Both the position numbers and the translations under genes were made by a program. A stretch of 35,349 nucleotides of DNA from Deltaproteobacteria bacterium (GTDB lineage: Bacteria; Desulfobacterota; Binatia; HRBIN30; JACQVA1): positions 139,180 to 174,528 of the forward strand of contig JACQVA010000158.1 in assembly GCA_016210005.1 (NCBI GenBank), read 5' to 3'. The notes under the pieces were generated by a model, which worked only from the letters and a program-made list of their open reading frames with translations, ran no database searches and had not been told where the DNA came from. Shown in pieces: positions 4,347 to 33,932 of this stretch (position 1 is its first letter; each line of letters starts with the position of its first letter).

Positions 4347-5483
4347 CTAGAACAGGTCCGGCAGGACCATGTGATCCCAGGCACCGCCGTCCGTGTCGGT
4401 AATACGATCGCCTTCGGTGTGAATGTTGAGTGCCGCCCGCGCCGAGTTGCCACCATCCACCCATGTGACCTCAGCAACTCCCACCACCGCACCGTTGAAG
4501 GTACCGTCGGTCGGATCGGCCGGGGTGATGCGCGTGTGCGCCACATCGGTGCCCAGTGTGGCCGCCGAGAATACGGAGTTGGCCGGGTTGTTCGGGCTAT
4601 CGATGTCCGTCAGCACGATATTCTTCCAGCAGTTCACCGTAATACTCGCCGAGAACTTCTCCTCGTACTCGTTGTACACGGCGAATTGAACCGTGACCCG
4701 GCCGCCCTGCTGAGTTTCGAAGTTGGCCGAGCATGGAACCAGCGTCAGTTCCGTGGTCACCCCGAGGGCGGTACCCGCCACCGTTATTGCGCCACCGTCA
4801 CCGAAGTGATTCAGGAGCAACGCAGCCGGGCAAGCGTTGTATTCGCCGGGGTTGCTGCCGTCCCTCTTGCGGTTGAGCAGAAGGTCGTTACCACTAGCAC
4901 CGACAAGCGCCGAACCGATGATTCCGATAGCGTTGTACTTGCTGACGTCGCCGTCGGCACCTTTGAGGATGGCCTCGCCCTTGAGGCTGTTACCGCCCAC
5001 CGGGGCGCCGTCGATCATGACTTCGACACAGCGCAACTCGCCGACGAAACCACCGGGCACTGGCGGAATGGCACCCGGATCAATACCGGCACCGTCGGCC
5101 CCGGGGATGTAAGTATCCGTCGGATCCATCGGCCGGCCCGTGGTCACGCGCCAATGGGTCGGCTGCTGCTTCGTCAGCCAGATCGTGAAGTCAGTTTCGT
5201 TCCAGATCGGCAGGCAGCCCGTCAGGGGGTTTTCGATGCCGCCGCACCACTCTGGCAAGCGCGCATCGACGTAGAAGCAGCGAGCGTGCACCATGTTGTT
5301 GGTGGTGTTCGAGATTTGAATGACCGTATCGATGCCGCCGGTCGTGATCACCTTGGGAAAGACCAAGATGGACGCCGGCTTTTCCGTCACGACGTCAGCG
5401 CGAGCGCTCGTCGCGATCACTCCCAGCGCCACCACGAATCCGCAGAGGCCCGAGAGAAACGCATTCCACTTCACCATTCGCAT
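4347..5483 (-). CDS. Secreted protein of unknown function, paralogue B
   Basis: 378 residues starting MRMVKWNAFLSG, with a signal peptide ending around ARA/DV. The start at 5483 is decided by AGGAGGAGGGC immediately upstream. The mature part begins KPASILVFPKVI and continues GIDTVIQISNTTNN, ARCFYV, LTKQQPTHW, FVGELRC, SLKGEAI, YNAIGI, LTLVPCS and YNEYEEKFSAS, all with counterparts in the 2986-4278 protein in the same order. It is therefore the product of an old tandem duplication; identity looks well under half by eye. A 68-nt gap separates it from the downstream copy, with no terminator visible, so the two are probably one transcript from the promoter at 5581-5610. Function unknown; the shared domain looks like a secreted beta-rich module. 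Confidence 0.75.
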   Translation of the reverse strand: MRMVKWNAFLSGLCGFVVALGVIATSARADVVTEKPASILVFPKVITTGGIDTVIQISNTTNNMVHARCFYVDARLPEWCGGIENPLTGCLPIWNETDFTIWLTKQQPTHWRVTTGRPMDPTDTYIPGADGAGIDPGAIPPVPGGFVGELRCVEVMIDGAPVGGNSLKGEAILKGADGDVSKYNAIGIIGSALVGASGNDLLLNRKRDGSNPGEYNACPAALLLNHFGDGGAITVAGTALGVTTELTLVPCSANFETQQGGRVTVQFAVYNEYEEKFSASITVNCWKNIVLTDIDSPNNPANSVFSAATLGTDVAHTRITPADPTDGTFNGAVVGVAEVTWVDGGNSARAALNIHTEGDRITDTDGGAWDHMVLPDLF

Positions 5484-5580
5484 TGCCCTCCTCCTTTCCA
5501 GTCGACCGAGACTCATCCCACACTCCTCGCGCTCAAGCACCTCCGGCGCGCTCTCCAAGAGCCCGGCGAAAGCGGAGCGT

Positions 5581-5684: not shown

Positions 5685-6776
5685 TCATTTTCTACCCCCC
5701 GTCTGGGGGCCATCCGTAAACCGCACAAACCGCCAAAGGCTTCCTCCCCGACCGCTCGCATCGAAGAACGGGTCGTTATAAACCACTTTTGCCCCCTGGT
5801 CGTCAAACGCAAAAGACATTTCTCTTGCCCCGGCGCTCAACAGGGCCTTCCGGACCGCAGCTTGGCACTGGCCGGGGCAGTCGAGCAAGAGGAAGCCCCC
5901 ACCGCCGGCGCCGGTGATTTTTCCACCCACGGCCCCGGCCGCGCGGGCCAAGCCGTACAGCTCATCGATCCGCGCCGAGCTGATCCGGGGGGACCAACGC
6001 TTCTTGAGTTCCCATTGCTCATCCAGCAGGCGCCCGCAACGATCGAGGCGGCCATGGGTGAGGTTGTCGCAGAATTCCTCGGCGAGTTGGCGCAAGGCAT
6101 CCGGCGTCTCCAGCGTGCCGTTGCCTGGACCGCGCATGGCTTGGTCCATCGCGCGCAGAATTCCCTCCGAGTTGCGCGCGCTGCCGGTGAAGAACAAGAG
6201 TAGGCGGGCCTCGAATTCCCGCAGGATTTCACTCGCCAGCGGCAGCCGATCAACGCGCACATCCGCGCGGGTGAAACGAAACCGGTTGAGGCCACCGAAT
6301 GCCGCCGCGTACTCGTCCTGTTTGCCCGCCGGCTTGCCGAGTACGACCCCGGCGATGTGAAAGGCGCGCTCCGCCAGCTCGTGGCGACTCAAGGGTACGC
6401 CGAGGTAGGTGCTCAGCGCCTTGATCACGTTGACACACACCGAGGCCGAGGATCCCAGCCCCGTGCCCGGCGGGACTTCCGAAGCCAGGAACAGGTTCAA
6501 CCCGCGCGGCGGGCGGAATTCCCGCAGCACCGCCAGCGGTATATCCAGCTCGCCGCGCCCGGCGGGCATTTCCTCCAGGCGCGCCACGTTGGTCATGGTC
6601 TGGAGGTCGGCCGAAATGACTTGAACGTTGTCGTCATCGCGCTCGGTCACGATGGTGTAGAAGTACTTGTTGATGGTGGTGCTTACCACCAGGCCGTCGC
6701 GCTGCGAGTAGTAGGCCGGCAGATCAGTGCCACCGCCGGCGAAGCTGACCCGTACCGGGGTGCGCACAATCAACAC
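5685..6776 (-). CDS. hddA: GHMP sugar kinase, D-glycero-D-manno-heptose 7-phosphate kinase-like
   Basis: 363 residues from a GTG at 6776. The start RTPVRVSFAGGGTDLPAYYS is the hallmark of HddA-type GHMP kinases, which phosphorylate sedoheptulose-derived heptose 7-phosphate at C1 for GDP-heptose synthesis; related enzymes act on fucose. The ATP-binding GHMP motif PPGTGLGSSAS is at residues ~102-112, and the C-terminal motif GGKITGAGGGGFLL is intact. The GTG overlaps the stop of the upstream phosphoglycosyl transferase by 7 nt; the next codon, TTG, could also serve. It is the last gene of the polysaccharide operon. The usual partners (GmhA, GmhB, a nucleotidyltransferase) are not in the window, so the exact sugar is unproven. 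The symbol is given by family resemblance. Confidence 0.82.
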   Translation of the reverse strand: MLIVRTPVRVSFAGGGTDLPAYYSQRDGLVVSTTINKYFYTIVTERDDDNVQVISADLQTMTNVARLEEMPAGRGELDIPLAVLREFRPPRGLNLFLASEVPPGTGLGSSASVCVNVIKALSTYLGVPLSRHELAERAFHIAGVVLGKPAGKQDEYAAAFGGLNRFRFTRADVRVDRLPLASEILREFEARLLLFFTGSARNSEGILRAMDQAMRGPGNGTLETPDALRQLAEEFCDNLTHGRLDRCGRLLDEQWELKKRWSPRISSARIDELYGLARAAGAVGGKITGAGGGGFLLLDCPGQCQAAVRKALLSAGAREMSFAFDDQGAKVVYNDPFFDASGRGGSLWRFVRFTDGPQTGGRK

Positions 6777-8170
6777 GGCTCGCACCTCGTAACCTTGGCA
6801 GCAGTGACGGGGGCCGATGGCGCCGGCCGCCCCGAGCCGCCGCGCCGCTGCAGTAGTGTCCACAGCGTTTGCAGCAAGATCTTCAAATCGACGAGCAGTG
6901 ACTGGCGCTCGATATACTGCAGGTCGAAGTGGGTCTTCTCGTCCGTCGAGTCGAAACCGCGCAAGCCATTGACTTGCGCCAAGCCGGTTATCCCCGGCCG
7001 TACCAGCAGCCGGCGCCGGTGCCAGGCGCTGTAGCGCTCGGCGCGCTCGGGCGGTTCCGGGCGTGGGCCGACCAAACTCATCTCACCGCGCAGTACGTTG
7101 ATCAGCTGCGGCAACTCGCTCAGGCTGTAACGCGCCAGCCAAGCATCGGCGTCGGCTGCCACGGCGAAGCGCAGCAGCGTGAACGGGTGGCCCATGCGCC
7201 CGACGCGCCGGTGTCGTTCGATCGCCGGCCGGCCGCTGCGCCGGCGTAAGCTGGCGGCCACTGCCACGAACAGCGGGCTAGCCAGCAGCAACACCAGCGT
7301 GGTCAATCCGACGTCGAGCAACCGCTTCGCCACCCGCTCCCAGCCATGCAGCGAGGCGCGGCGAAACGCCAGCAGCGGAATCCCTTCGATGCCATCGAGC
7401 TGCATGCTGCTGGAGTAAAGCTCGTACAAGTCGGGCACCAGCCGAACTTCGACCCCGGCGGTCTGACAACCGGTGATGAACTCGCGCAACTCCTCGTTCT
7501 GGCCGACGGGCACGGTCAGCACCACGTCACGCACCTGCTCGCGCCGCAGCACGGCAAGGGCATCGCGCAGCCCCAAGCGATCGGCCTCACCGGCGCGCCC
7601 GCTCTCCGCGCTTTCTTGGCGCAGCGCACCGATCAAACGATAGCCCAACTCCGGATGCAGGCCCACGGTCTTGATCACACTGGCCGCGGCTTCGTTGTCG
7701 CCGACCACCACCAGGTTACGCACCCCGATCCCGCGCCGGTAGGCCCACATCAGGCTCTGCTTCATTGCCAAGCGCACCAGCACGACCGCGCCAACATTGG
7801 TAACCCAGAGGTAGGACAACAGCAGCCGCGAGTAGAAGAACCATTTCAGCAGGTATGACAGCGCCAAGAAGAACACCATGCCGAGGCTGACCGCGGCCAG
7901 ACCGGTGAACAGCAAGTCGCTAATGCGCCACCCGCGCCGTAACTCGTACAAGCCGAAGTAAGCAAAGATCGCCACCCAGGTGCCGCTCACCAGCAGTACC
8001 GCCTGCCCGTACGCCAACACCCCCGGCCCGGCGCCGATCTCGCCGATGCCGGGAGCGTGATAGCGCAGCCAGTAGGCGGTGGCGAAGCAGGCGAAGATCC
8101 CGAGCACGTCGCCAGCCGCCAGGGCCGCAACAAATGCCGCCTGGCGCCACTCCCGCGTGCGCCCGTTCAT
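6770..8170 (-). CDS. Polyprenyl-phosphate phosphoglycosyl transferase, active site altered
   Basis: 466 residues with the WbaP/WcaJ layout. Four to five N-terminal membrane helices (residues ~10-150) are followed by a nucleotide-binding-like region (RNLVVVGDNEAAASVIKTV) and a C-terminal bacterial sugar transferase domain (KRLLDVGLTTLVLLLASPL ... SLVGPRPE ... RPGITGLAQVNGL). Such enzymes transfer a sugar phosphate from a nucleotide sugar to undecaprenyl phosphate. Two things are wrong here. The catalytic Asp-Glu pair, normally SLDELPQ, reads SLSELPQ (Ser351-Glu352; codons at 7115-7120). The stretch from the basic loop to this motif, which normally holds the KFRSM motif, is only ~20 residues against ~50 in the second transferase of this operon. 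The frame is open and the start overlaps the upstream stop as ATGA, so it is presumably expressed. Confidence 0.85.
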   Translation of the reverse strand: MNGRTREWRQAAFVAALAAGDVLGIFACFATAYWLRYHAPGIGEIGAGPGVLAYGQAVLLVSGTWVAIFAYFGLYELRRGWRISDLLFTGLAAVSLGMVFFLALSYLLKWFFYSRLLLSYLWVTNVGAVVLVRLAMKQSLMWAYRRGIGVRNLVVVGDNEAAASVIKTVGLHPELGYRLIGALRQESAESGRAGEADRLGLRDALAVLRREQVRDVVLTVPVGQNEELREFITGCQTAGVEVRLVPDLYELYSSSMQLDGIEGIPLLAFRRASLHGWERVAKRLLDVGLTTLVLLLASPLFVAVAASLRRRSGRPAIERHRRVGRMGHPFTLLRFAVAADADAWLARYSLSELPQLINVLRGEMSLVGPRPEPPERAERYSAWHRRRLLVRPGITGLAQVNGLRGFDSTDEKTHFDLQYIERQSLLVDLKILLQTLWTLLQRRGGSGRPAPSAPVTAAKVTRCEPC

Positions 8171-9279
8171 GGCGTCACCCGGCGTACGACCCCGTGTGCA
8201 CGCATCTGCCGGTCGGCCTCGGCGAAGTAGGCGCCGACATCGCCCTGCTGGCGCACCCAGCCCAGGTAGTCGTGCAGGATATCGGCCAGATCGCGCCGCG
8301 GGCGCCAGCCCAACGCCTGCAACCGGGTGGTGTCGGAGACACTGTGCCGGTTGTCGCCCAGCCGATAGTCGCCAGGAATGACCGGCTCGAGCTTCGCCCC
8401 CATCGCCTCGATGAGCACACGAGCGTACTCCCGCACCGTGACCGCGCAGCCGCCACCGACGTTGAAAGCTCGGTGGTCGGCGCGTGGATCATTGAGCACC
8501 TGCCAGTTGGCCTCGACCACGTCGGCGATGTGGACGTAGTCGCGCCGTTGCCAGCCGTCTTCATACAGCACCGGCGGCTGGCCGTTGAGTACTCTCAGGC
8601 AGAAGATGCGGCAGATGCCGGAATAGCTATTGAACAGCGACTGCCGCGGCCCCTGCGTGATCGAGTAACGCAAGGCCACGGTAGGGATACCGTATAGCCG
8701 CCCCAGCCGCAGCGCCGTCAGCTCCGCGGCCAGTTTCGAGATCGCGTAGGCGTTGACCGGGTGATGGTCGCGCTCATCGAGCAGTAGCGCCTCGGCCACT
8801 GCGCCGCAGTGCGGGCACACCACCTCCCACTGCCCTGCCGCCAGGCGAGCGGGGTCGCGACTCTCGGGCTGGAAGTCGCCGTGGGCGGCACAGCGGTAAC
8901 GCCCTTCACCGTACACCGCCTGTGACGACGCGACGATGACTTTGCGCACCAGCCAGCCCTCTTCGACGATGATTTCGAGCAGCAGCGCCGTGCTCGCCGC
9001 GTTGGTGGTCAGGAAGGTGCTGAAGTCCGGCATGTAGTCCTGATAGGCAGCCTGGTGGAAGATCAGCTCGACGCCGCGCAGCGCGCGCCGCAGCGTCTCC
9101 TTGTCGCGCACATCACCGGCGATGAACTCGGCCGCCGCGGGGATGTAAGCCGGCTTACCGTGGGGGTGCACGCGCAGTTGCAGATTGTCGAGAATGCGCA
9201 CCGCCAAGCCCTCGGCGAGCAGCCGATCCGCGATGTGGGAGCCGATGAAACCCGCCCCGCCGGTGATCAAGGCACGCAT
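8167..9279 (-). CDS. NAD-dependent sugar epimerase with zinc-ribbon insert
   Basis: 370 residues starting MRALITGGAGFIGSH, an extended SDR fold: the NAD motif is G7xxG10xxG13 and the catalytic pair is Y178xxxK182 (AYAISK). Between the active-site Ser loop (SSQAVYGEG) and the Tyr motif there is an extra ~40-residue segment with C130, H133 and C155-P-H-C158, which looks like a small zinc-binding ribbon. An insert of this kind occurs, from memory, in proteins annotated as dTDP-L-rhamnose 4-epimerase, so a 4-epimerase of a deoxy or amino sugar is the best guess; substrate unknown. ATG at 9279 is one base after the stop of the upstream oxidoreductase; the stop overlaps the next gene as ATGA. Cytoplasmic, within the polysaccharide operon. 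Confidence 0.85.
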   Translation of the reverse strand: MRALITGGAGFIGSHIADRLLAEGLAVRILDNLQLRVHPHGKPAYIPAAAEFIAGDVRDKETLRRALRGVELIFHQAAYQDYMPDFSTFLTTNAASTALLLEIIVEEGWLVRKVIVASSQAVYGEGRYRCAAHGDFQPESRDPARLAAGQWEVVCPHCGAVAEALLLDERDHHPVNAYAISKLAAELTALRLGRLYGIPTVALRYSITQGPRQSLFNSYSGICRIFCLRVLNGQPPVLYEDGWQRRDYVHIADVVEANWQVLNDPRADHRAFNVGGGCAVTVREYARVLIEAMGAKLEPVIPGDYRLGDNRHSVSDTTRLQALGWRPRRDLADILHDYLGWVRQQGDVGAYFAEADRQMRAHGVVRRVTP

Positions 9280-9280
9280 C

Positions 9281-10300
9281 TCACACACTCGCCAGCGGCA
9301 CCGCCACCGAACCGCGCGCCAGCGACAGCTCGGCGGCCGCCAGCACCCGCACGACCCGCAAGCCACTGGCCCCGTCGGCGCGCGGTGGCGTGCCGGTGCG
9401 CAGGGCGCGAACAAACTCCTCGCACTCCAAACGCAGCGGCTCGTCCGCCGCCAACACCGGCACTGTCACCTTCGCCGGCCGGTAGAACAGCGCCCGGGTG
9501 TCGTCATCGCCAGCCCCGACACGGCTATCGAAGCCTTGATCGAAGACGCGCACCTTCTCGGGTGCCAAGTCATCGTACAAGATTGATCCTTGCGTCCCCA
9601 TCACCCACAGACGCCGCGTCTTGTGCGGCGATAGCCAGCTAACGTGAATCTGCCCCCTGCACCCCCCTGCAAACGCGAGATGAACAAAGGCGGCATCGAG
9701 CAGATCGCCACGCGTGCAGCGGCTGCCAAATGCGGTGACCGTCTCCGGTTCGGCGCCGGCCAGGAGCAACTGAATCGAAACATCGTGCGGCGCCAAATCC
9801 CACAACACGTTGACCTCGGAGGCCGGCGGCCCGGGATTTATGCGCGCACCATCCAGGTACGCCAGCTCACCGATCGCCCCTTGGGCGATGGCCGTGCGCA
9901 GCGCGCTGATCGCCGGGTGATACTCGAACAGGTGGCCAACGCCGAGCAACAAGCCGCGGCGCTCAGCCTGCTCGACCAGATCGAGCGCCTGCGCGGGCTG
10001 CGCTGCCAGCGGTTTTTCCACCAACACATGCTTGCCGGCCGCCAGCGCGGCCAGTGCCAGCTGGTGGTGGGTCGACACCGGCGTCACCACGCAGACAGCG
10101 TCGATCTCGGGATCGCGCAAGATCGCCTCGTGATCATCCGACAGCACCACCTCGGGGAAGCGTTCGGCCACGAACCTCAATCGCCCCGGGCGCCGATCGG
10201 CGGCACGTTTTACGCGGCAGCCCGGTACCGCCGCGAAGCTGCGCAACACGTTGGGGCCCCAGTAGCCGCAGCCGATGACGCCCACGACCACTTCTTGCAT
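9281..10300 (-). CDS. Gfo/Idh/MocA oxidoreductase, WlbA-like UDP-sugar 3-dehydrogenase
   Basis: 339 residues starting MQEVVVGVIGCGYWGPN, with the Rossmann NAD motif G10xG12xxG15 and the family motif VEKPLA (E95-K96-P97). WDLAPHD (D168, H172) supplies the usual catalytic His. With the aminotransferase (11232-12398) and the acetyltransferase (12476-13054) it makes a WlbA-WlbC-WlbB set. In that pathway UDP-N-acetylglucosaminuronic acid is oxidised at C3, aminated and N-acetylated. The start ATG shares its A with the stop of the upstream sugar transferase (TGATG). The UDP-GlcNAc 6-dehydrogenase and the 2-epimerase of the pathway are not in this window. Substrate assignment is by context and family likeness. 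Confidence 0.85.
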   Translation of the reverse strand: MQEVVVGVIGCGYWGPNVLRSFAAVPGCRVKRAADRRPGRLRFVAERFPEVVLSDDHEAILRDPEIDAVCVVTPVSTHHQLALAALAAGKHVLVEKPLAAQPAQALDLVEQAERRGLLLGVGHLFEYHPAISALRTAIAQGAIGELAYLDGARINPGPPASEVNVLWDLAPHDVSIQLLLAGAEPETVTAFGSRCTRGDLLDAAFVHLAFAGGCRGQIHVSWLSPHKTRRLWVMGTQGSILYDDLAPEKVRVFDQGFDSRVGAGDDDTRALFYRPAKVTVPVLAADEPLRLECEEFVRALRTGTPPRADGASGLRVVRVLAAAELSLARGSVAVPLASV

Positions 10301-11244
10301 CACGCCGCTCCCCGCCCGCCGATCACAACCAGCAGCGTCTCCCATAGCACGCGCAGGTCCGTTCGCCAGGTTCGCCCCAAGGCGTAACAGATGTCCATGA
10401 ACGCCATCTCGTCGGCGTGCACTTTGCCGCGGCCGCGAACTTGCCACAGGCCGGTGAGCCCAGGCCGCACCATGAAGCGGGCACGCTGCCAGGGTTTGAG
10501 CAGCTCGTACTCATACAGAAGGCACGGGCGTGGCCCGAACAGTGTCATATCCCCCTTCAGCACCGAACATAGTTGCGGTAGTTCATCCAGGCTGTGGCGG
10601 CGCAGCACCTCGCCGATCGGCGTAATGCGCGCGGCCTCGACGATCTTCGTCGGGGCCGCCCCCCCGGCGACGAATTCCGCAAAACGCTCTTGACGCCGCG
10701 CCTCATCCCGCCCGCCAATCCGCATAGTGCGGAACTTGTACCACGTGAACGGCCGGCCGTCTTGTCCCACCACCTCGGCGCGGTGAAACACGCCGCCGGG
10801 CGAGGACCGCCGCACCAGCACCGCAATGATCAGCAACAAGGGGAGCAGTACTACCAGCACCGTACCGGCCACGGCGATATCAACCACGCGCCGCCACCTC
10901 CGCAACGGGCGGGCGGCTGCCAGCACCACCCCCGGACGGTCGCCGGTCGGCTCCTCGGGCAACAAGCCTTGCAGCTCGGCCAGCTCGGCCCTCTCGAGCC
11001 ATACCGCCACACCGGCGGCCGTGTAATGCAAAGCCAGTGTGGCCAGCATCTCGCGGCTCAGGCCGCTCTTTGCAATGAGCACCTTCTCGACGTTCGGCGG
11101 CACCGGCGCCGCGAGCGCGGCTAACGGTGTCAACTCGGCGCGCACCTCGATTCCCGCGGCGCGCGCAGTGCCGGCCAACGCCGCCGCTGCCGCGCCCTCC
11201 CCCACCACCGCAACCGACGCCACCGGCTGGTTCAATCGCTGCAC
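10300..11244 (-). CDS. Polyprenyl-phosphate phosphoglycosyl transferase (bacterial sugar transferase)
   Basis: About 314 residues. The N-terminal ~120 residues form a soluble alpha/beta-looking region without the membrane bundle of WbaP. A single hydrophobic helix follows (VVDIAVAGTVLVVLLPLLLI), then a complete catalytic core: YKFRTM, the dyad motif SLDELPQL, MTLFGPRP and RPGLTGLWQVRG. It should load the first sugar phosphate onto undecaprenyl phosphate at the inner membrane. Because the other transferase of this operon (6770-8170) lacks the Asp, this is the likelier active initiator. No ATG is available: GTG at 11244 is chosen, but TTG at 11235, which overlaps the upstream stop as TTGA, is equally possible. 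Confidence 0.88.
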   Translation of the reverse strand: MQRLNQPVASVAVVGEGAAAAALAGTARAAGIEVRAELTPLAALAAPVPPNVEKVLIAKSGLSREMLATLALHYTAAGVAVWLERAELAELQGLLPEEPTGDRPGVVLAAARPLRRWRRVVDIAVAGTVLVVLLPLLLIIAVLVRRSSPGGVFHRAEVVGQDGRPFTWYKFRTMRIGGRDEARRQERFAEFVAGGAAPTKIVEAARITPIGEVLRRHSLDELPQLCSVLKGDMTLFGPRPCLLYEYELLKPWQRARFMVRPGLTGLWQVRGRGKVHADEMAFMDICYALGRTWRTDLRVLWETLLVVIGGRGAA

Positions 11245-12398
11245 ACCTGCCGCACCACCGCGACCACCGCATCGTGCTGGGCCTCGCTCATATGCGCCCA
11301 TAGCGGCAGCGACACCACCTCACGAGCGCAGCGCTCGGCCACCGGAAAACTGCCTTCGAGCTGTTCGAGGTAGGCAAAGGCTGGCTGCCGGTGCACCGGC
11401 ACCGGGTAATGCACACCGGTGACGATGCCGCGCGCACCCAGGGCCGAGCGAAACAGGTCACGCTCCGGCACGCGGACGCAGTACTGGTGATAGACCGACT
11501 CGCTGCCCCCAGTTTCGCGCGGCAAGCGCACGGGCAAGTCCGCCAGCCGTTCGTTATAGCGGTGCGCCCAGCGGCGCCGGGCGGCATTCCAATCATCGAG
11601 GCGGCGCAACTTGATGCGCAGCACCGCCGCCTGCAACGCATCGAGTCGGGAGTTGCCGCCGTCCGGCAGCACGTGCACGTATTTCTCCGCCTGCCCGTGA
11701 TCAGCCAGCAGGCGGATCTGCTCGGCCAACGCGGCGTCGTTAGTGGTCACCACTCCGGCATCGCCCATGGCACCGAGATTCTTGGCCGGGAACAAGCTGA
11801 ACCCGGCCACATCGCCGACGCTCCCCGCCCGCCGCGGCATCCCCGCCACCACGGTGTTGGCTCCGACCGCTTGTGCCGCGTCTTCGATCAGGCGCAGGCC
11901 GTGCGCCCCGGCGATGCGCGTAAGTGCCGCCAGATTGGCCGGCAAGCCATACAAGTGCACGGGGATGATCGCCTTCAGTACCGCGCCGCTGTGTTTGAGC
12001 ACCCGCCGGCTGTTGCGCGCCACGGTCTGCTCGTGCAGGAAGCGCTCGACCGCCACCAGGTCGATGTTGAAGTCCTCGTCACTGATGTCGACAAAGACCG
12101 GTTGCGCCCCGACCTGAACGATGGCTTCGACGGTGGCGACGAAGGTGAACGGTACCGTGAGCACGGCGTCGCCGCGGCCGATGCCCAAGGCTTGCAACGC
12201 CAATCGCAGCGCATCGGTGCCGTTGCCGACGCCGATGGCGAAGCGCGCGCCGCAGTACTGCGCGAACTCGGCCTCAAAGCCGCTCACCTCCTCGCCGCCG
12301 ATGAAGCGCGAGGTGCGCAACACTCGTGCGATCGCCGCATCAATCTCGCCCTGCAACTCTTCGTACTGAGCGTACAAATCCGTGATCGGAACGTGCAT
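11232..12398 (-). CDS. DegT/DnrJ/EryC1-type PLP sugar aminotransferase (WlbC/WbpE-like)
   Basis: 388 residues starting MHVPITDLYAQYEEL. The fold and motifs are those of the sugar aminotransferases: VGNGTDAL (phosphate binding), VPFTFVATVEAI, LIEDAAQAVGA (Asp to the pyridine nitrogen) and FSLFPAKNLGAMGDAG with the PLP lysine at K206. The C-terminal VSLPLWAHMSE is also typical. It probably puts an amino group on the 3-keto sugar made by the dehydrogenase at 9281-10300, using glutamate as donor. ATG at 12398 is preferred to TTG two codons earlier; no strong ribosome site is seen before either. There is a 77-nt gap to the acetyltransferase upstream, the widest gap inside this operon. Confidence 0.9.
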   Translation of the reverse strand: MHVPITDLYAQYEELQGEIDAAIARVLRTSRFIGGEEVSGFEAEFAQYCGARFAIGVGNGTDALRLALQALGIGRGDAVLTVPFTFVATVEAIVQVGAQPVFVDISDEDFNIDLVAVERFLHEQTVARNSRRVLKHSGAVLKAIIPVHLYGLPANLAALTRIAGAHGLRLIEDAAQAVGANTVVAGMPRRAGSVGDVAGFSLFPAKNLGAMGDAGVVTTNDAALAEQIRLLADHGQAEKYVHVLPDGGNSRLDALQAAVLRIKLRRLDDWNAARRRWAHRYNERLADLPVRLPRETGGSESVYHQYCVRVPERDLFRSALGARGIVTGVHYPVPVHRQPAFAYLEQLEGSFPVAERCAREVVSLPLWAHMSEAQHDAVVAVVRQVCSD

Positions 12399-12475
12399 GC
12401 TCAAGCTGTCACAAGTTCAGCGACAAAAGTCAAAAACCTCGATCCGAACAACCTGTTAGGCATCTCACCCCGCAC

Positions 12476-13054
12476 TTACACCGCCGGCTCGACTTTACCC
12501 CGGACACGCCGGAAGCGCCGGCCACAAGCGCAGGCGGCGCGGCCGGCAGTAAAGCGCAGCGTCTGTCCGCAGCCACAGACCGCGCCCCGGACGCGCGCCG
12601 GGTTACCCAGCACCAGCGCAAACGCCGGCACCGACTTGGTCACCACCGCCCCGGCTCCGATCATGGCATAGCGGCCGATCTCGATACGGCTCAGCAGCGT
12701 GGCATTAGCGCCGATGCTGGCGCCCTCGCGCACCACCGTGGCAGCGGGCTGCTCGTGATACACCCGGCTGCGCGGCCGCGGATCATTGGTGAAAGCGACG
12801 TTGGGCCCGATGAAGACGCCCGCCTCGATGGTCACGCCGGCCCACAGCGACACGCCGTTCTTCACCACCACGCCGTCGCCGATGCTGGCGCCGGCTTCGA
12901 CGAAGCACTGCTCGCCGATATTGCAGTCGGCGCCGACCCGCGCCCCCGCTTGCACGTGGGAAAAACCCCAGATGCGGGTACGCGGCCCGATGTCGCGCGT
13001 TTCCACCAGCGCTTGCGGGTGCACGTACGGCGCCTGGCCGCGGCCCGCACTCAC
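12476..13054 (-). CDS. Left-handed beta-helix N-acetyltransferase (WlbB/WbpD-like)
   Basis: 192 residues from a GTG at 13054. Hexapeptide repeats run through most of the protein (IGPRTRIWGFSHVQAGARVG, VVVKNGVSLWAGVTIEAGVF, IGRYAMIGAGAVVTKSVP). FIGPNVAFTNDPRPRS is a WlbB/WbpD signature. The tail carries CGCG and CACG, a likely zinc ribbon, as in many WlbB relatives. The expected reaction is acetyl-CoA-dependent acetylation of the 3-amino group of the uronic-acid sugar nucleotide. The chosen GTG overlaps the deacetylase stop as GTGA. An ATG at 13111 has a good ribosome site (AGGGAGAATC) but would overlap the upstream gene by 61 nt and add an Arg-rich tail absent from the family, so it is less likely. 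Confidence 0.88.
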   Translation of the reverse strand: MSAGRGQAPYVHPQALVETRDIGPRTRIWGFSHVQAGARVGADCNIGEQCFVEAGASIGDGVVVKNGVSLWAGVTIEAGVFIGPNVAFTNDPRPRSRVYHEQPAATVVREGASIGANATLLSRIEIGRYAMIGAGAVVTKSVPAFALVLGNPARVRGAVCGCGQTLRFTAGRAACACGRRFRRVRGKVEPAV

Positions 13055-14349
13055 CAACACAGCTCGCCGGCGACGCGCCGCAGTACGTCGGGTCGCAGTT
13101 CCTTCGCCCATGATTCTCCCTGACCGTCAGCCGTTATCGTCCCATCGGCGCGCCAGGTCGCCGCGTTGCGCACCCGCCACCATTGCGCCACCTCGCGCGG
13201 CAACGCCCGCCAGCAGTCGGCGCGTTTGGCTACCCATTGCAGCACGCGGGCATAGGCGTCAAGGCGCGCGTGCCGGTCGAGATAATCAGGATGCGTCAGC
13301 ATCAAGGCCATGCCGCGGTAGCGTTCGATAACCGCCAGCTTCGCCAGCCACACCTGCTCCGCCTCGAGTCGGAGTTTCTCGAAGAGGGTGAAATCCTGCG
13401 GCAAGGTGTAAGGTAACTCGACCAGACGTCCGAGCCAAAACGGAAACCAACTGCACGTACCGCCCGGCTGCGGCTCGAACGGGTCGGTATCGAAATAGGA
13501 AGCATCGTAGTCGACGTTGATTTCCGCCAGCCAGTCTGAGCGCCGGAGTGTTGCCGGGCTGCGAAACCCTGCGGCGCCAATCCGCCGCACGTAGTCGTTG
13601 ATGCGCGGCAGCCGCCGCTCGAAGACTCGGCGCGAGGCCAACAGCCGCCCGTCGTGCCGCAAGCCGTGGATGCTGACCTCGAAACCGTCCTCGGCGAGAC
13701 GCCCGAGATAGTCCCAATCCACCCGGTAGAGTTCCGGCACAATGAACCATGCCGAGCGAAAGCCCAGATCGCGTTCGAGCCGCGCTAACGGCTCAATCCG
13801 GGCAAAGCCCTCCGCGCTGTCGACATCGTGGGTCAGCACGAACGCGAAGCGGCGATTGCCGGGCCAAAAGGCCACGTAGGGCCACTCGTCCATCTCGCGC
13901 AACATCGTCGCCAGAACCAGCTGGTGAAAGCGGATCAGGCTCAGTTCCAGCGGCCAGCGAGGAAAGCGCGTCACGTCAGAGCGCCGCGCCTGCCCGCGCT
14001 GCAAGGCCCGGCGCAGCGCCAGCGGAATGAACGGGCGCAAGCGGTAGTAGGCGGCACGCCCGCGCGGCGGCGCCGCGGCGTAGCGCTCGCAGAGGTAGTT
14101 GTCGAACACCTCGTCGGGGTCGAACGGCAGGCGTCCGTCGGCTGGAGCCCCGCCGTCCCAGCCCTGAGCACAGGCGCCAAACAAGAAGGCATCGGAGCAG
14201 AAGCGATGCAACGCTGCGGGCGCGGGCGGCGCGCCGGCCGCAACACCGGCCTCTAAGCCCGGACTTCCGCGCAGCTTCCAGAAACCCGCCACCGTGTTTG
14301 CCCGCGGGGCACCGCCGGCCGCGAGGCCATCTGTCCGGCTGCTACTCAC
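13051..14349 (-). CDS. Polysaccharide deacetylase family protein (NodB-like)
   Basis: 432 residues from a GTG at 14349, chosen because AAGGA lies about 8 nt upstream. The catalytic part begins near residue 170 with FVLTHDVDSAEG (metal and catalytic Asp at D175, D177) and continues with the metal pair HGLRH (H228, H232) and GFRSPATL. Later come a WFPFW segment and LTHPDYLD, with the distal His. This is the NodB fold in a PuuE/polysaccharide-deacetylase-like form, with a long N-terminal region of its own. It would remove acetyl groups from an amino sugar in a glycan or precursor. No signal peptide is seen, so it may act in the cytoplasm. It is the first gene of the polysaccharide operon. Confidence 0.82.
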   Translation of the reverse strand: MSSSRTDGLAAGGAPRANTVAGFWKLRGSPGLEAGVAAGAPPAPAALHRFCSDAFLFGACAQGWDGGAPADGRLPFDPDEVFDNYLCERYAAAPPRGRAAYYRLRPFIPLALRRALQRGQARRSDVTRFPRWPLELSLIRFHQLVLATMLREMDEWPYVAFWPGNRRFAFVLTHDVDSAEGFARIEPLARLERDLGFRSAWFIVPELYRVDWDYLGRLAEDGFEVSIHGLRHDGRLLASRRVFERRLPRINDYVRRIGAAGFRSPATLRRSDWLAEINVDYDASYFDTDPFEPQPGGTCSWFPFWLGRLVELPYTLPQDFTLFEKLRLEAEQVWLAKLAVIERYRGMALMLTHPDYLDRHARLDAYARVLQWVAKRADCWRALPREVAQWWRVRNAATWRADGTITADGQGESWAKELRPDVLRRVAGELCW

Positions 14350-14456
14350 GGCGCGATCCTTAGCCGAGAACTGGCCGGGCCGCGAGCGACGCGATAGCGG
14401 GCCTGCGGCACGGGTGTGCGACAAATCTGTGGGTAACGTGCAGCCGCCTCACCAGT

Positions 14457-26779: not shown

Positions 26780-28099
26780 TCAGTCGCGCTTGCTGGCGGG
26801 CTTGGCTACGTCGGGCTTCTTGCCGGGAGTCTGGCGGTCATAATACAAGGTCTTGTGACATCCCGGTGAGCAGCCGCCGCCGGTCTCGGTCTTGACGAAG
26901 CGCAACGGCAGATTCCATTTTCCGAACGGCACGCTCTCTGCGATCAGCTTGGGTTGGGAGCTGCCGTGCATGTCGTGACAGAGCCGGCAGCTGCGCCCCT
27001 TCTGTTTGTTGTTCACGTGCAGGTAGTGGAGGTTCTTGTCCCCGTCCCTGAAGTTGGTGGCGAACGAGGTGTCCGGATACTGTAGCAGGTCGCGTTTGTG
27101 GCAACTGAAACAGAGCGCAAATTCGGTTTCGGTGTAGGGCACGTAGGGATCGGTCGGGAAGGCCTTGGCCAGCAGCTTCGCGTTCTGGCTGCCGTGTGGA
27201 TCATGGCAGCGCGTACACTTGCCGTCGTTGTTGGGGCCATGGAGCACGGTCATGTTCTTGGTGATGACGGTGCTGTGACAGCTCAAGCAGGTCTCCTTGA
27301 GCGGATTGAGCAAGAGCTTCTCGTGGTCGCCGGCATGGGGCGAATGGCAGGCCGCGCAGCCCTGCTCGCCCTTGACGGCGGCATGAACCACCGGCGCCTG
27401 CGTGATCTTCTCCCCGATCTCGCCGTGGCAGAGGAAGCACAGCTGCGCTCCTGCTTCCGCCAGCATCTTCGGGTGGGCGGCACCGTGCGGGTTGTGGCAC
27501 GAAGTGCAGCCGCCCTGGAGCGCGGGATGCAGGTTCTTCTTCTTCACCATTTCCGGCACGTCGAGATGGCAGCCGGCACACAGCTCCTCGCCTTGCTTCA
27601 GCAGCAGGGTCTTGGCGTCGGACTCGTGCGCGGCGTGGCAGGCGGTGCAGGCGCCGGCGGAGACCGGGCCATGGACAACCTTGAAGTCGACGTGGTCGGC
27701 GTGACAGATCGCACACAGATCCTTCAGCGGCTGGGTCAGCAGCTTGGGTTCGTCGGCCGCGTGGGGGTTGTGGCAGGTGCTGCACATCCCTTCCTTGGCG
27801 GGCGGATGCACCTCCGCCTTGCTGCCGAATTTCTCGTGGCAGGTGTAACACAGCTCGGGCTGCTCCTGCGTCAGCTTGAAGGTGTTCTGGCCCTTCTTGG
27901 GATGCGGCGTCGCTATCGACTCGTGACAGCCCTCGCAATTCTCCGCGATCGGGTGGACATTCTGACCCTTCAGCAGGGCCGCGTGGCACTTGCCGGAGAC
28001 GCAACCCTCCTCGGCAGCGGCAGCCACGCCCGGCAGCCAGAACCGGCACAGCAGGAGCGAAGCCAGCAGCAGGCCTGTACCAACATCCCTGTGATTCAT
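26780..28099 (-). CDS. Multihaem c-type cytochrome, 13 CXXCH plus 2 expanded motifs
   Basis: 439 residues with a signal peptide (LLLASLLLCRFWLPGVAAAAEEG, cleavage AAA/EE). Thirteen CXXCH motifs lie at fairly even spacing, most with the doubled-CXXCH form CxxCHxPH or CxxCHxxH. There is also a CX4CH (CVSGKCH) at the very N-terminus and a CX3CH (CSPGCH) at the end, so up to 15 haems. This is the doubled-CXXCH/cytochrome c3-like group, built as a wire of stacked haems. Located in the periplasm or, if secreted further, on the surface. ATG 28099 is preferred to the Met seven codons upstream because AGGAAAGGG precedes it. It is the last gene of the cytochrome-barrel operon. Confidence 0.93.
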   Translation of the reverse strand: MNHRDVGTGLLLASLLLCRFWLPGVAAAAEEGCVSGKCHAALLKGQNVHPIAENCEGCHESIATPHPKKGQNTFKLTQEQPELCYTCHEKFGSKAEVHPPAKEGMCSTCHNPHAADEPKLLTQPLKDLCAICHADHVDFKVVHGPVSAGACTACHAAHESDAKTLLLKQGEELCAGCHLDVPEMVKKKNLHPALQGGCTSCHNPHGAAHPKMLAEAGAQLCFLCHGEIGEKITQAPVVHAAVKGEQGCAACHSPHAGDHEKLLLNPLKETCLSCHSTVITKNMTVLHGPNNDGKCTRCHDPHGSQNAKLLAKAFPTDPYVPYTETEFALCFSCHKRDLLQYPDTSFATNFRDGDKNLHYLHVNNKQKGRSCRLCHDMHGSSQPKLIAESVPFGKWNLPLRFVKTETGGGCSPGCHKTLYYDRQTPGKKPDVAKPASKRD

Positions 28100-28133
28100 G
28101 CGCCGATCCCTTTCCTGCATGTGCCCGAGCCCA

Positions 28134-30008
28134 TCACGGATAGGAAGTGCCGTCGTGAACTACACCGTGACACACGAGCGTACAACTTCCTGAGAAGACC
28201 CCGCCAACCGCCGGCGGGCAACCGGAGTCGATCGTGGCGGTATCGCCGTCGCAGAACAGCGGGTACAAACCCGCCTTGGGCAAGACGATCCTGGTATCGA
28301 AGTTGATGAGATGCGTGTGCGACCCCGTCTGCCGCGCGCCGAACTCGTTGACTCCGTGCGCGTCGTGACAGGCCGAGCAGGGCGCGCCGGCTGCCAGATG
28401 TCCGCTGTGGCCGCCCCCGGAAGCCGTCGTCCGCATCGTCTTCTTACGGAAACTTACGTCGTTCATAATGCTCGATCGGTTATGGCAACGGTAACAGAGG
28501 GCATAGTTATCGTAGCTCTCCGGAGTGTAGTCTGCGGTCTCGTAACGTTCCTTCAAGATCGGCGCAAACGCCGAGCCGTGGGGCCCGCTGGCACCGCCCT
28601 CGTCGTCGGCGTGGCAGGTGGTGCAATAGATCATCGCCGACGGACTCATGCTGGGTTCGAGCGGCGAGGGAATGCTGGGAATGTTCAGGTTCCTGCCCAT
28701 GCTGACAACCGGGTGGTACGAGGGGTTGGCGGCATCGAAGGCCCGCCGGGTATTGGTGACGGCGAGCACGCGGGGAACGTAGTTGAGGTCCGGGGTGTTG
28801 TCACCATGGCACTTGAAGCAAACCTCGTATTCATAGGTCACTGAACGGATCTCCATGCCGTTGCGATCGACGCCGCTGACCGCTCGCAGCAGGCCCGAAG
28901 CATACGGGGCCTGGGCCTTGCCCCGAGCGGTGAAATGCGGGTTGTGGCAATCGGCGCAAGCAATGCTGCGCACACCTGAGCGTGCCGCCCCGCCGGGCAG
29001 CTGGAGGGCCAGCGCGAAGGCACCGAGGGGCTCGTGGTGGGCGGAGGGCTTGCGTGTTTGGCGGGCAATATCGACCATCCCGGCAGCCGCGCGCCCCGGG
29101 GCGCCGACAGCTGCACGCGCGGTGGTCGCGTGCGGCTCACCTGGTGCTGAGCTGTGGCAACCGGCGCTGGTGCAAGAAAACGGATCCGGCGGCGCGGCGG
29201 TGAAATTCAGCAACTGCTCCGCGGTCGGGGCGAAATGGGGTGTATGGCAGGCCTCGCAGCCCCACTCGTTCAGCTGCGTGTAGGTGGGCCAGGTCTTCGG
29301 CGGCCGCGGCAGAATCCCGACCACCGAAGCGGTCGAGGTCGCGTGTGCCGAGCTGCTCCATCCCGTCAGCTGATGGCAACTGGTGCATAGCGCTGAGTAG
29401 CGGTTGTCCTTCAACAGGAACTTCTCGTAGCGGTCACTGTGCGGGTCGTGACAAGTGGTGCAATGCACCTCGTCGGCGCCGCCGTACACCAGCTCGGGCG
29501 GCGGCGAGAGCGCCAGCTCGGGATTGGGCAGGGCATTGTGGTAAGCGAAGGACACCGGGTGGTGGCCGGATAAGTCCAAACCGAAACTCGAGTGACTGCC
29601 GAGCGCGGCGCTGGCCATGCCGATGCCGCCGACCGGGTTAACCACCGCGCCCAGCGCGATCGTGCCGTCATGACAGCTCAGACAGAGCTTGCTGGCACCC
29701 GAAGGTTGCGGCAGCGGGCCGGCGCGCAAGGTCGGGCTCGCATAGACGGTGTAGACCTGCGGCTCGAGCTCCTTGTTCCACAGCGGCGACAGCGGGGTGG
29801 CGTTGTGCGGGGTGTGACAAAAGATGCAGATGCGGGTTTCCGTCAGCGCCTGCACCGGCCCGGGGCCCGACACCGACAGATTGTGCGGGGTGCGGGCCAT
29901 GTCGGACGGGCTCTGCGCCTCGACACCACGACCCAGGCCGATCGCGAGCAGACAAAGAACCTGGACAGTCAGCGTGAGGCAACCGGCGATCAGACGAAGT
30001 CGCGTCAT
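28134..30008 (-). CDS. Multihaem c-type cytochrome, 10 CXXCH plus 2 expanded motifs
   Basis: 624 residues; signal peptide MTRLRLIAGCLTLTVQVLC continuing to VEA/QSP. Ten CXXCH motifs (CIFCH, CLSCH, CTTCH, CTSCH, CEACH, CADCH, CFKCH, CTTCH, CYRCH, CSACH), a CX4CH (CTSAGCH) and a CX3CH (CTLVCH) near the C-terminus give up to 12 haems. The N-terminal CIFCHTPHNA block with LCLSCHDGTIALGAV is typical of doubled-CXXCH cytochromes of the surface electron-transfer type. Longer, haem-free stretches between motifs (for example ~290-360) suggest extra beta-rich domains. The gene is 34 nt upstream of the next cytochrome. ATG 30008 is preferred over the GTG four codons earlier. Confidence 0.93.
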   Translation of the reverse strand: MTRLRLIAGCLTLTVQVLCLLAIGLGRGVEAQSPSDMARTPHNLSVSGPGPVQALTETRICIFCHTPHNATPLSPLWNKELEPQVYTVYASPTLRAGPLPQPSGASKLCLSCHDGTIALGAVVNPVGGIGMASAALGSHSSFGLDLSGHHPVSFAYHNALPNPELALSPPPELVYGGADEVHCTTCHDPHSDRYEKFLLKDNRYSALCTSCHQLTGWSSSAHATSTASVVGILPRPPKTWPTYTQLNEWGCEACHTPHFAPTAEQLLNFTAAPPDPFSCTSAGCHSSAPGEPHATTARAAVGAPGRAAAGMVDIARQTRKPSAHHEPLGAFALALQLPGGAARSGVRSIACADCHNPHFTARGKAQAPYASGLLRAVSGVDRNGMEIRSVTYEYEVCFKCHGDNTPDLNYVPRVLAVTNTRRAFDAANPSYHPVVSMGRNLNIPSIPSPLEPSMSPSAMIYCTTCHADDEGGASGPHGSAFAPILKERYETADYTPESYDNYALCYRCHNRSSIMNDVSFRKKTMRTTASGGGHSGHLAAGAPCSACHDAHGVNEFGARQTGSHTHLINFDTRIVLPKAGLYPLFCDGDTATIDSGCPPAVGGVFSGSCTLVCHGVVHDGTSYP

Positions 30009-30044
30009 ATTAACACCCACAGGACACTAGCCCCGAACCGGCTC

Positions 30045-31121
30045 CTAGTCGGCCGCCGCGCCGGCGTACCGTTCGGTGATGCGAAACACCTGGATGCGCC
30101 GGTTGTAGGCGTCGCACACATAAAGTTCGTTATCGTCACTTATGAACGCGCCCGCCGGCAGCCAGAACTCCCCGAAGTCGGTACCGCGCCGGCCCAGGGT
30201 CAGCAGGAAATCGCCGCGGCGGTTGAAGAGCTGGACGTGGTCGAAGAGGCCGTCGACGACGTAAATGATGCCGTCACGGTCCACCGCCACCCCCTTGGGT
30301 ATGGCCAAATCACCGGAGCCGTCACCGTGATGGCCGAAGGAGCCCAGCGCCTTACCATCTTCGTCGAAGACCGCGATCCTGAAATTGAGCGAATCGGTCA
30401 CGAAGAGATCACCGGAGGCGGCCCGAAAGATGTGCGTGGGAAAATTAAAGCGGCCTTCGCTCGCACCGCGCCCGCCGAACGAGAAGGCCAGCTCGCCGTT
30501 CTTCCTGAAGGCATGAATCCTGTTCGCCAGCGTATCGACGACGTAGAGCAGCTTCTTGCCGGGGCTGTAAGCTATGCCGGTCGGCCGCTGCAACGGCTGG
30601 GTGCCGGCCGCCCTCACGGCAAACAGCAGCGTCCCGTCGGCGTCGAACACCAATACCTTTCCGGCCGAATCGCACAAGTAGAGGCGCAACTCCTCGTCGA
30701 AGATCAGACCGACCGGTGAACTGATGGCTTCAGTTTCCGAGCCCGCCAGCTGTAGGTAGCGCTGAGTAGCGGGCAAGTAGAGGTGCACTCGCCGCCGTCC
30801 CATATCGGCGACCGCCAGGCGGCCGTCGTGGCCGGCGGCGACAGCCACCGGCAGAACGAAGGCATTGCGGTCCGCGGCTTCGCTGCCGAAAACGATGGCG
30901 CGCAGGAGCGTGCCGGAGTCCGTCTGGCGGGTCAGGCCGGTCAGCGAGCGGACGTAAGTCAGCTTGGCCCGGTTCGGCTGGTACGGCCACTGCAAAGCGA
31001 TCTCGGGTTGGGCCGCCTGCAGGTTCCATTTCGCGGCACAGCCTAGCGCCAAGAAGGCGAGCCCACCGACCAGGCTCGTGCATCGCCAGCAAGCACCCGC
31101 GCGATCGTTAGACCTCAGCAT
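30045..31121 (-). CDS. NHL-repeat beta-propeller lipoprotein
   Basis: 358 residues. Signal with a lipobox-like end LAFLALGC (Cys28). The rest is a six-blade NHL-type propeller with repeats such as VAADMGRRRVHLYLPATQRY-like blades, GIAYSPGKKLLYVVDTLANRIHAF, ASGDLFVTDSLNFRIAVFDEDG, GVAVDRDGIIYVVDGLFDHVQLF and AFISDDNELYVCDAYNRRIQVF. NHL propellers bind proteins or ligands and carry no haem. Its place between the barrel and the two large cytochromes suggests an outer-membrane-anchored accessory of the complex. A second, divergent NHL lipoprotein lies at 33933-35099. Gaps to both neighbours are about 40 nt. Confidence 0.87.
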   Translation of the reverse strand: MLRSNDRAGACWRCTSLVGGLAFLALGCAAKWNLQAAQPEIALQWPYQPNRAKLTYVRSLTGLTRQTDSGTLLRAIVFGSEAADRNAFVLPVAVAAGHDGRLAVADMGRRRVHLYLPATQRYLQLAGSETEAISSPVGLIFDEELRLYLCDSAGKVLVFDADGTLLFAVRAAGTQPLQRPTGIAYSPGKKLLYVVDTLANRIHAFRKNGELAFSFGGRGASEGRFNFPTHIFRAASGDLFVTDSLNFRIAVFDEDGKALGSFGHHGDGSGDLAIPKGVAVDRDGIIYVVDGLFDHVQLFNRRGDFLLTLGRRGTDFGEFWLPAGAFISDDNELYVCDAYNRRIQVFRITERYAGAAAD

Positions 31122-31163
31122 AACGCCACCTTGCCTTACTGCCTTACTTGGCCCGCGCCGCTT

Positions 31164-33218: not shown

Positions 33219-33364
33219 CGCCAGCCATCCGCACAACCCAGCGGCAGCGATCGCAGCATAGGTACGCGATTGAGGTCGGCGCCTGTCGCGCGCGGCTGCT
33301 GGCGATTTTCGCTTCGACCCCCATCTGTCCAACGGGCCTCCACAACGCCGACGGTATCCCACCC

Positions 33365-33901
33365 TCATCTCAGCAGGTGCTTCTTGTCAGCCATGTGAGC
33401 ATCGTGACAGGTGGTGCACTGTTCGGCGATGCCCTCGTGGGCGCTCATCGGCGTCAGGCTCTGGCGCTCGTGGCAGTGAAAACAGAAACTGTCGGATTCC
33501 GACACCAGCAGGTAGCGGTACTGGGAGCTGTGGGGATCATGACACACCCTACAGCCACCCGACGCCAGCGGCCCGTGGATGTAGGGCTTGTCCAGCCTAA
33601 GCTCATGGCAGCGGAAACACAGTTGCTCCCCCGGCGCCACGAGTGCATTGGTGGCTCCCGGTTCGTGACAAGCGTGGCAGAGTTTGGCTGCGAACGGGCC
33701 ATGCTCTCGATATCCGACCTGCCGCGGTTTCACCGTCTCGTCCACCATCTTCGCCGCAGGCTCGGGTATCGCACCCGTCGCTGCTGGGGGCGGCACCCCG
33801 TCGAAGAAGAAAGAGAGGACCTGGTAGCGGGAGGCCGCGTTGCAGCCCATCGACAACACGGCCGCAAGCGAGACGCTGGCCGCCACCGTCCATACTTTCA
33901 T
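33365..33901 (-). CDS. Pentahaem c-type cytochrome, probable lipoprotein
   Basis: 178 residues, starting MKVWTVAASVSLAAVLSMGC; the Cys at 20 follows an imperfect lipobox. After a linker containing LSFFFDGVPPP come five CXXCH motifs (CHACH, CFRCH, CRVCH, CFHCH, CTTCH), several followed by a His 2-3 residues later (CHDPH, CHDAH). The small size and lipid anchor suit a cytochrome held at the outer membrane next to the barrel encoded just downstream (146-nt gap). ATG 33901 is chosen since it starts the signal; a Met 56 codons earlier would run into the upstream gene. Confidence 0.9.
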   Translation of the reverse strand: MKVWTVAASVSLAAVLSMGCNAASRYQVLSFFFDGVPPPAATGAIPEPAAKMVDETVKPRQVGYREHGPFAAKLCHACHEPGATNALVAPGEQLCFRCHELRLDKPYIHGPLASGGCRVCHDPHSSQYRYLLVSESDSFCFHCHERQSLTPMSAHEGIAEQCTTCHDAHMADKKHLLR

Positions 33902-33932
33902 CGAAATCCGGAAAGCGATTGCGCGCCGCGAT

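Follow-up and report, generated by a model that had tools for sequence, protein, structure and literature searches.

A gene on the reverse strand of a 35,349-nucleotide stretch of Deltaproteobacteria bacterium DNA (the window; contig JACQVA010000158.1, assembly GCA_016210005.1) encodes a large monotopic phosphoglycosyl transferase (PGT) that has lost conserved catalytic residues and been retained under selection; judged by its sequence, the protein, here called the pseudo-PGT, is a pseudoenzyme. It probably helps or controls a working PGT rather than doing chemistry itself. The same operon encodes a shorter PGT with intact catalytic motifs (PGT2), which is predicted to lack a membrane helix bundle, and we tentatively favor, at somewhat under an even chance, the explanation that the pseudo-PGT is selectively maintained as a non-catalytic partner or regulator of this active enzyme.

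A large monotopic PGT by descent

The pseudo-PGT is, by descent, a full-length large monotopic PGT of the WbaP/WcaJ kind (Lg-monoPGT), an assignment drawn from profile matches. Residues 282-440 match PF02397 (E 4.5e-43), residues 72-246 match CoA_binding_3 (PF13727; E 1.2e-14), and the protein scores 316.6 against TIGR03025, for which the cut-off is 295.55. The domain order is typical of large monotopic PGTs: a membrane bundle (placed from a low-confidence model), a domain of unknown function (DUF) and a PGT domain. With Salmonella enterica WbaP (8t53), WcaJ, Myxococcus xanthus EpsZ and TIGR03025 it has in common a DUF and a PGT domain after N-terminal helices, the conserved Glu, the GPRP, PG[IM]TG..Q and D..Y motifs and a predicted PGT fold, but it differs from them in lacking the Asp of the catalytic Asp-Glu dyad and the equivalent of PglC Arg88, in carrying Arg for a conserved Lys and in the excision of the mobile loop. 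The small monotopic PGT PglC (8e37, 8g1n) shares the PGT fold; unlike the pseudo-PGT, it is catalytic, retains the loop and the dyad, and has neither bundle nor DUF. Annotation can mislead here: since the TIGR03025 cut-off is passed, the pipeline name would be that of an active polyprenyl glycosylphosphotransferase.

Dismantling of the active site

In phmmer alignments, Ser351 of the pseudo-PGT stands, as a sequence-only reading of this DNA had proposed, at the dyad Asp position of both PglC and WbaP, and Glu352 is retained in register. We gauged the rest of the lesion against 112 distinct aligned rows, representing loci of the same phylum chosen for similarity to the pseudo-PGT or PGT2, with identical segments merged and a spurious alternate frame (L115_+1) dropped; the underlying surveys comprised 72 rows from the genome itself, 98 relatives (this genome included), the order and the phylum, followed by 51 further loci (40 stretches and 11 from a PGT2 search, some of which had been surveyed before). 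The Lys of KFR[ST]M, the motif that follows it (scored loosely, as [FL][RKC][ST]M), the Arg that precedes the dyad and the dyad Asp are each present in 110 rows, and the only two rows in which all four are missing together are the pseudo-PGT and its orthologue (L006) in G001, a genome from another genus of the same family. The dyad Glu and the GPRP Arg (residue 111 or 112 in PglC numbering) are found in all 112 rows; Ser351, Glu352 and the GPRP Arg are kept in both pseudo-PGT copies. The DX12P motif of the re-entrant helix, with its Asp in 109 rows and its Pro in 107, is present in the pseudo-PGT as D286 and P299, and the Pro is replaced by Ser in the G001 orthologue.

The sequence-only reading had also reported that about 30 residues carrying KFRSM were missing. 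The segment is indeed absent, but its size was overstated: F335 is 16 residues from S351 in the pseudo-PGT and its orthologue versus 27-61 residues in the 110 intact rows, where the commonest spacing is 36 (61/110), which makes the net loss 20 residues relative to the commonest homologues; a loss of about 30 fits only members with 46-49 residues. The lesion also reaches further than had been reported, since Ala346 and Arg334 replace two more conserved residues. Ala346 lies five positions before the dyad, where WbaP has Arg; its equivalence to PglC Arg88 is by counting.

In PglC, Asp93-Glu94 is reported as the dyad, with Lys59, Arg88 and Arg111 orienting the substrate (PMC12802240); Arg88 binds undecaprenyl phosphate (Und-P), and a mobile loop made up of residues 61-81 is closed when the site is occupied (PMC10519829), with Met63 and Arg79 of this loop predicted to hold uracil (PMC12550135). 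By residue numbering, Lys59 and Met63 would be the Lys and the Met of KFR[ST]M. Because these are the roles that the PglC papers give to the lost residues, the dyad Asp, the Und-P contact and the loop that binds the nucleotide and closes over the UDP-sugar are all gone from the pseudo-PGT, and from the family mechanism we infer that it would be unable to form the covalent phospho-sugar intermediate.

A shifted but complete Asp-Glu dyad, which the sequence-only reading had named as fatal to its own case, was sought in the sequence, and the in-register Ser-Glu pair speaks against it. D340 and D342, candidates for a migrated Asp, sit in the scar left by the excision, at a place where the orthologue carries no acidic residue. 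The D410-E411 pair fails to align with the dyad; it is found some 60 residues further downstream, immediately ahead of the conserved Asp416.

The PGT fold is predicted to be kept with the loop excised. In a single-chain AlphaFold 2 (AF2) model built from a 20-row alignment, ten-residue means of the predicted local distance difference test (pLDDT) are 73-97 over residues 281-440, and strand 329-335, before the scar, leads through a short coil into helix 343-347, which directly precedes the dyad position. The PGT part superposes on PglC 8e37 with Z 22.1 and a root-mean-square deviation (rmsd) of 2.1 Å over 167 residues. The whole model matches WbaP 8t53 with Z 23.5 and an rmsd of 13.9 Å over 321 residues, in which the domain arrangement is not fitted; overall pLDDT is 69.4 and the predicted template modelling score 0.51, with low confidence in the bundle and in some stretches of the DUF.

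Selection on the dead protein

The orthologue is 78-79% identical to the pseudo-PGT (130/168 in the PGT domain) and carries the same scar, Ser, Ala and Arg, so that the search for relatives sharing the Ser and the deletion, which the sequence-only reading had recommended, yielded one. Between the two copies the ratio of nonsynonymous to synonymous change (dN/dS) is 0.160 (bootstrap 0.117-0.214), a value from Nei-Gojobori (NG86) distances that are rough at this divergence and from one genome pair, hence one comparison. By part, dN/dS is 0.118 for the bundle, 0.201 for the DUF, a looser 0.286 (0.108-0.600) for the re-entrant helix and the strand after it (residues 278-335), and 0.071 (0.023-0.176) for the C-terminal part of the dead domain. 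The last is about as constrained as the corresponding parts of live PGTs, which give 0.063 in PGT2 and 0.100 in a further PGT pair shared by these genomes. When the PGT domain was evolved neutrally in simulation, at one change per site, 0 of 1000 pairs escaped stops in both lineages, and identity reached 0.28 at most, versus the 130/168 observed.

Distribution and origin

The pseudo-PGT is known from two genomes of one family. Among the 98 genomes searched, a clear orthologue is found in G001 only, and profile searches of 15 genomes of the order and 395 of the phylum added no third among the matches listed, where the best match outside the two copies has E 1e-65; the lesion was judged in the best 12 loci for the order and the best 30 for the phylum. 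Two scans of genome_contigs and one pattern scan of viral_contigs returned no relative, and a plasmid search gave 613 matching records, all below 60% identity. In viral_contigs, 17 of 22 loci have a readable dyad segment, and Asp-Glu is present in all 17. One viral locus, L103:1680-2294 (IMGVR_UViG_3300021404_000012), is a 204-residue open reading frame (ORF) holding a PGT fragment that keeps Asp-Glu, lacks the mobile loop and ends shortly after GDMTFVG; either its loop was lost in a separate, second event or it is a truncated relic.

A tree built from 66 full-length homologues joins the two pseudo-PGTs with full support, on a long branch of 1.58 changes per column. The deeper position of the pair has weak support and long branches come together, so an intact sister is not named. 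When the N-terminal, re-entrant and C-terminal parts were searched apart, the orthologue was the top match for all three; the next-best matches vary by part (L007; L062 and L051; L030 and L001, respectively) and their scores are close, which neither shows nor excludes a chimeric origin. Among the matches listed, a search of the open-access literature found no pseudoenzyme of the PGT family, and the sole paper using both "phosphoglycosyltransferase" and "pseudoenzyme" applies the latter to an RNase homologue.

A proposed non-catalytic partner for an active PGT

PGT2, which the sequence-only reading had correctly recognized as an intact transferase, retains KFRTM, Arg, Asp and Glu; after the dyad, PQ is replaced by PE in G001, and both copies have Ser where Asn is usual. 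It is modelled as a Rossmann-like N-domain and a PGT domain with no membrane bundle. Among the matches listed from the 98 genomes, a clear PGT2 orthologue is found in G001 only (61%, E 3e-116), the next-best match has E 1e-39, and most matches are to the PGT domain alone; a few are nearly full length, at 35-37%, inside longer frames (for example query 17-313 in G033, 10-313 in locus L001 of the genome itself), so PGT2 may have descended from a large PGT through loss of the bundle.

In both genomes a live, bundle-less PGT and a dead, bundle-bearing PGT are encoded in one operon, which suggests a heteromer. We posit that the pseudo-PGT serves the initiating PGT step as a membrane-bound partner without catalysis of its own: through its bundle and DUF it would pair with PGT2, anchoring or activating it; its DUF could perhaps sense a uridine nucleotide (uridine monophosphate, UMP), as the WbaP DUF appears to; and the conserved C-terminal part of the dead domain could be a docking surface or a product- or polyprenol-binding surface. 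WbaP is reported to dimerize mainly via its DUF, which appears to bind uridine nucleotides (PMC10942596). A full two-subunit initiating PGT, in which the dead protein would contribute bundle, nucleotide-sensing DUF and dead PGT domain and PGT2 the active site, is conceivable and rather doubtful.

Several observations weigh against a partnership with PGT2. The N-domain of PGT2 is nearly unconstrained between the genera (46/112 identical, dN/dS 0.61), which argues against a tight DUF-DUF contact; its C-terminal PGT part is tightly kept. Since small monotopic PGTs are reported to be active as bundle-less monomers (PMC10942596, PMC12802240), PGT2 may be able to do without a partner. The genome also encodes L001 and L002, further intact PGTs that could be the partner in its place. 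Co-occurrence of the pair in 2/2 genomes could be plain operon inheritance, and AF2 confidence is low outside the PGT domain, which leaves the arrangement of bundle and DUF to be assumed from that of the family.

Among the rivals, a sequencing, assembly or annotation artefact might be suspected in a draft genome of 268 contigs, but the same scar, Ser, Ala and Arg recur in an independent genome at about one synonymous change per site, which leaves such an error a negligible chance. Decay of a gene made redundant by PGT2, which the sequence-only reading had left level with a pseudoenzyme role, would account for the loss of several catalytic elements, for the looser re-entrant-helix part and for the Pro lost from it in the orthologue; because the lesion is shared and dN/dS is low, above all in the C-terminal part, we reject it as most improbable, the frame being open in two genera and neutral simulation never having produced such a pair, and the pseudoenzyme half of that earlier alternative stands. 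An active enzyme with altered chemistry, using Ser351 as nucleophile or running another reaction at the retained Glu/Arg site, gains from the conservation of Ser351, Glu352 and the GPRP Arg in both copies and from a C-terminal constraint like that of active PGTs; it is improbable all the same, as the loop, the Und-P Arg and the Lys went along with the Asp and the helix-breaking Pro is also lost in the orthologue, in a family where the P24A variant of PglC is reported inactive (PMC6133551).

A maintained pseudoenzyme whose partner is not PGT2 is a serious possibility, if still a minority one in our estimate: it could be a stand-alone membrane sensor of UMP or a uridine diphosphate (UDP)-sugar, regulate a different PGT, or act as a membrane scaffold for the sugar-nucleotide enzymes of the operon. 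The evidence from the dead site and from constraint applies equally to it, the bundle and the DUF are themselves under constraint, the WbaP DUF appears to bind uridine nucleotides (PMC10942596), the gene overlaps both its neighbours, and the N-domain of PGT2 is nearly relaxed. Against it, the tightest constraint falls on the C-terminal part of the dead domain, a part that would be dispensable to a protein working purely as a DUF sensor or membrane anchor.

Operon and surrounding sequence

The gene is an open frame coupled tightly to its neighbours, two points on which the sequence-only reading holds: the upstream epimerase gene overlaps it by 4 bases (ATGA), and the downstream kinase gene, from a GTG start at 6776, overlaps its stop by 7. 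In G001 these eight genes follow one another in identical order, as checked against its locus L035 alone, and both overlaps are of equal length (Table 1). Homology of the operon-head gene to G001 begins near 14301. At L035:8851-15704 in G001, genes on the operon strand continue upstream (DUF354, beta-helix, FemAB/GNAT and asparagine synthase), and none such lie upstream in the window.

Table 1. Features of the pseudo-PGT and its operon (window positions)
Feature	Positions	Strand	Evidence
Pseudo-Lg-monoPGT gene	6770..8170	-	Open ORF, 466 residues; PF02397 and CoA_binding_3; TIGR03025 over cut-off
N-terminal membrane helix bundle (putative), residues 1-145	7736..8170	-	AF2 helices H2-38, H49-80, H85-109, H115-145, low pLDDT; dN/dS 0.118
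DUF / CoA_binding_3 Rossmann-like domain, residues 146-272	7355..7735	-	PF13727 72-246; AF2 and PDB matches; dN/dS 0.201
Degenerate PGT domain, residues 278-445, fold predicted intact	6836..7339	-	PF02397; pLDDT; PglC 8e37 match
Arg334 for conserved Lys of KFR[ST]M (PglC Lys59)	7169..7171	-	K in 110/112 rows
Scar, residues 336-345; KFRTM end and mobile loop (PglC 61-81) excised	7136..7165	-	Spacing; same in G001 orthologue
Ala346 for Arg equivalent to PglC Arg88 (Und-P binding)	7133..7135	-	R in 110/112 rows
Ser351 for Asp of Asp-Glu dyad	7118..7120	-	D in 110/112 rows; PglC alignment
C-terminal part of dead PGT domain, residues 347-445, most constrained part	6836..7132	-	87/99 identical to orthologue; dN/dS 0.071
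GHMP sugar kinase (HddA-like)	5685..6776	-	PF00288/PF08544; NF049969 below cut-off; start by comparison with G001; synteny
NAD-dependent epimerase/dehydratase	8167..9279	-	PF01370; synteny
Gfo/Idh/MocA oxidoreductase, UDP-GlcNAc 3-dehydrogenase-like	9281..10300	-	PF01408; NF040723 below cut-off; synteny
PGT2, short PGT, intact catalytic motifs	10300..11244	-	KFRTM, SLDELPQ; model; proposed catalytic partner
DegT/DnrJ/EryC1 aminotransferase	11232..12404	-	PF01041; synteny
Hexapeptide acyltransferase (NeuD/PglB-like)	12476..13111	-	PF00132; TIGR03570 below cut-off; synteny
Operon-head gene, weak polysaccharide-deacetylase-like match	13051..14424	-	PF01522 E 0.041, below cut-off; synteny

An ORF adjoining the operon (4347-5558) has no Pfam match at E 1, and a 91-residue stretch 65% identical to it occupies the same place in G001, reaching the contig end. 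Beyond the downstream end of the operon, 674-2878 encodes a protein with CHASE2 and adenylate/guanylate cyclase domains; at 26780-35099, three genes with doubled CXXCH (multihaem cytochrome) motifs lie among NHL-repeat proteins.

Relation to known systems and significance

Dead paralogues that raise the activity of a live one have precedents: the S-adenosylmethionine decarboxylase prozyme is reportedly an activator of this kind. In trypanosomatid deoxyhypusine synthase, a dead paralogue is reported to raise activity 3000-fold (PMC3663545); there, as here, a dead copy stands beside an active one and heteromeric activation is proposed, but the enzyme is eukaryotic and unrelated and its activation was measured (PMC3663545). 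Closer in pathway is EcpK of M. xanthus, a bacterial tyrosine pseudokinase proposed as a scaffold in exopolysaccharide synthesis and likewise a conserved pseudoenzyme of a bacterial polysaccharide pathway; it differs in being kinase-like, in acting on a co-polymerase rather than an initiating transferase, and in that its interaction was shown experimentally (PMC12004946). EpsW, which stimulates EpsZ, by modelling through dimer formation, is likewise a non-catalytic protein acting on a large monotopic PGT, but it is a response regulator and not a PGT paralogue; the same report describes post-translational control of initiating PGTs as incompletely understood (PMC12802240).

Initiating PGTs commit a limited Und-P pool to a glycan. 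A natural large PGT that is under selection and probably does no chemistry separates the structural and regulatory roles of the bundle, the DUF and the PGT surface from catalysis. If the two-subunit arrangement with PGT2 were true, it would be, to our knowledge, the first entry step to bacterial surface glycans to be heteromeric and regulated by a pseudoenzyme; in any case, the pseudo-PGT makes it readily testable whether large PGTs can function as heteromers.

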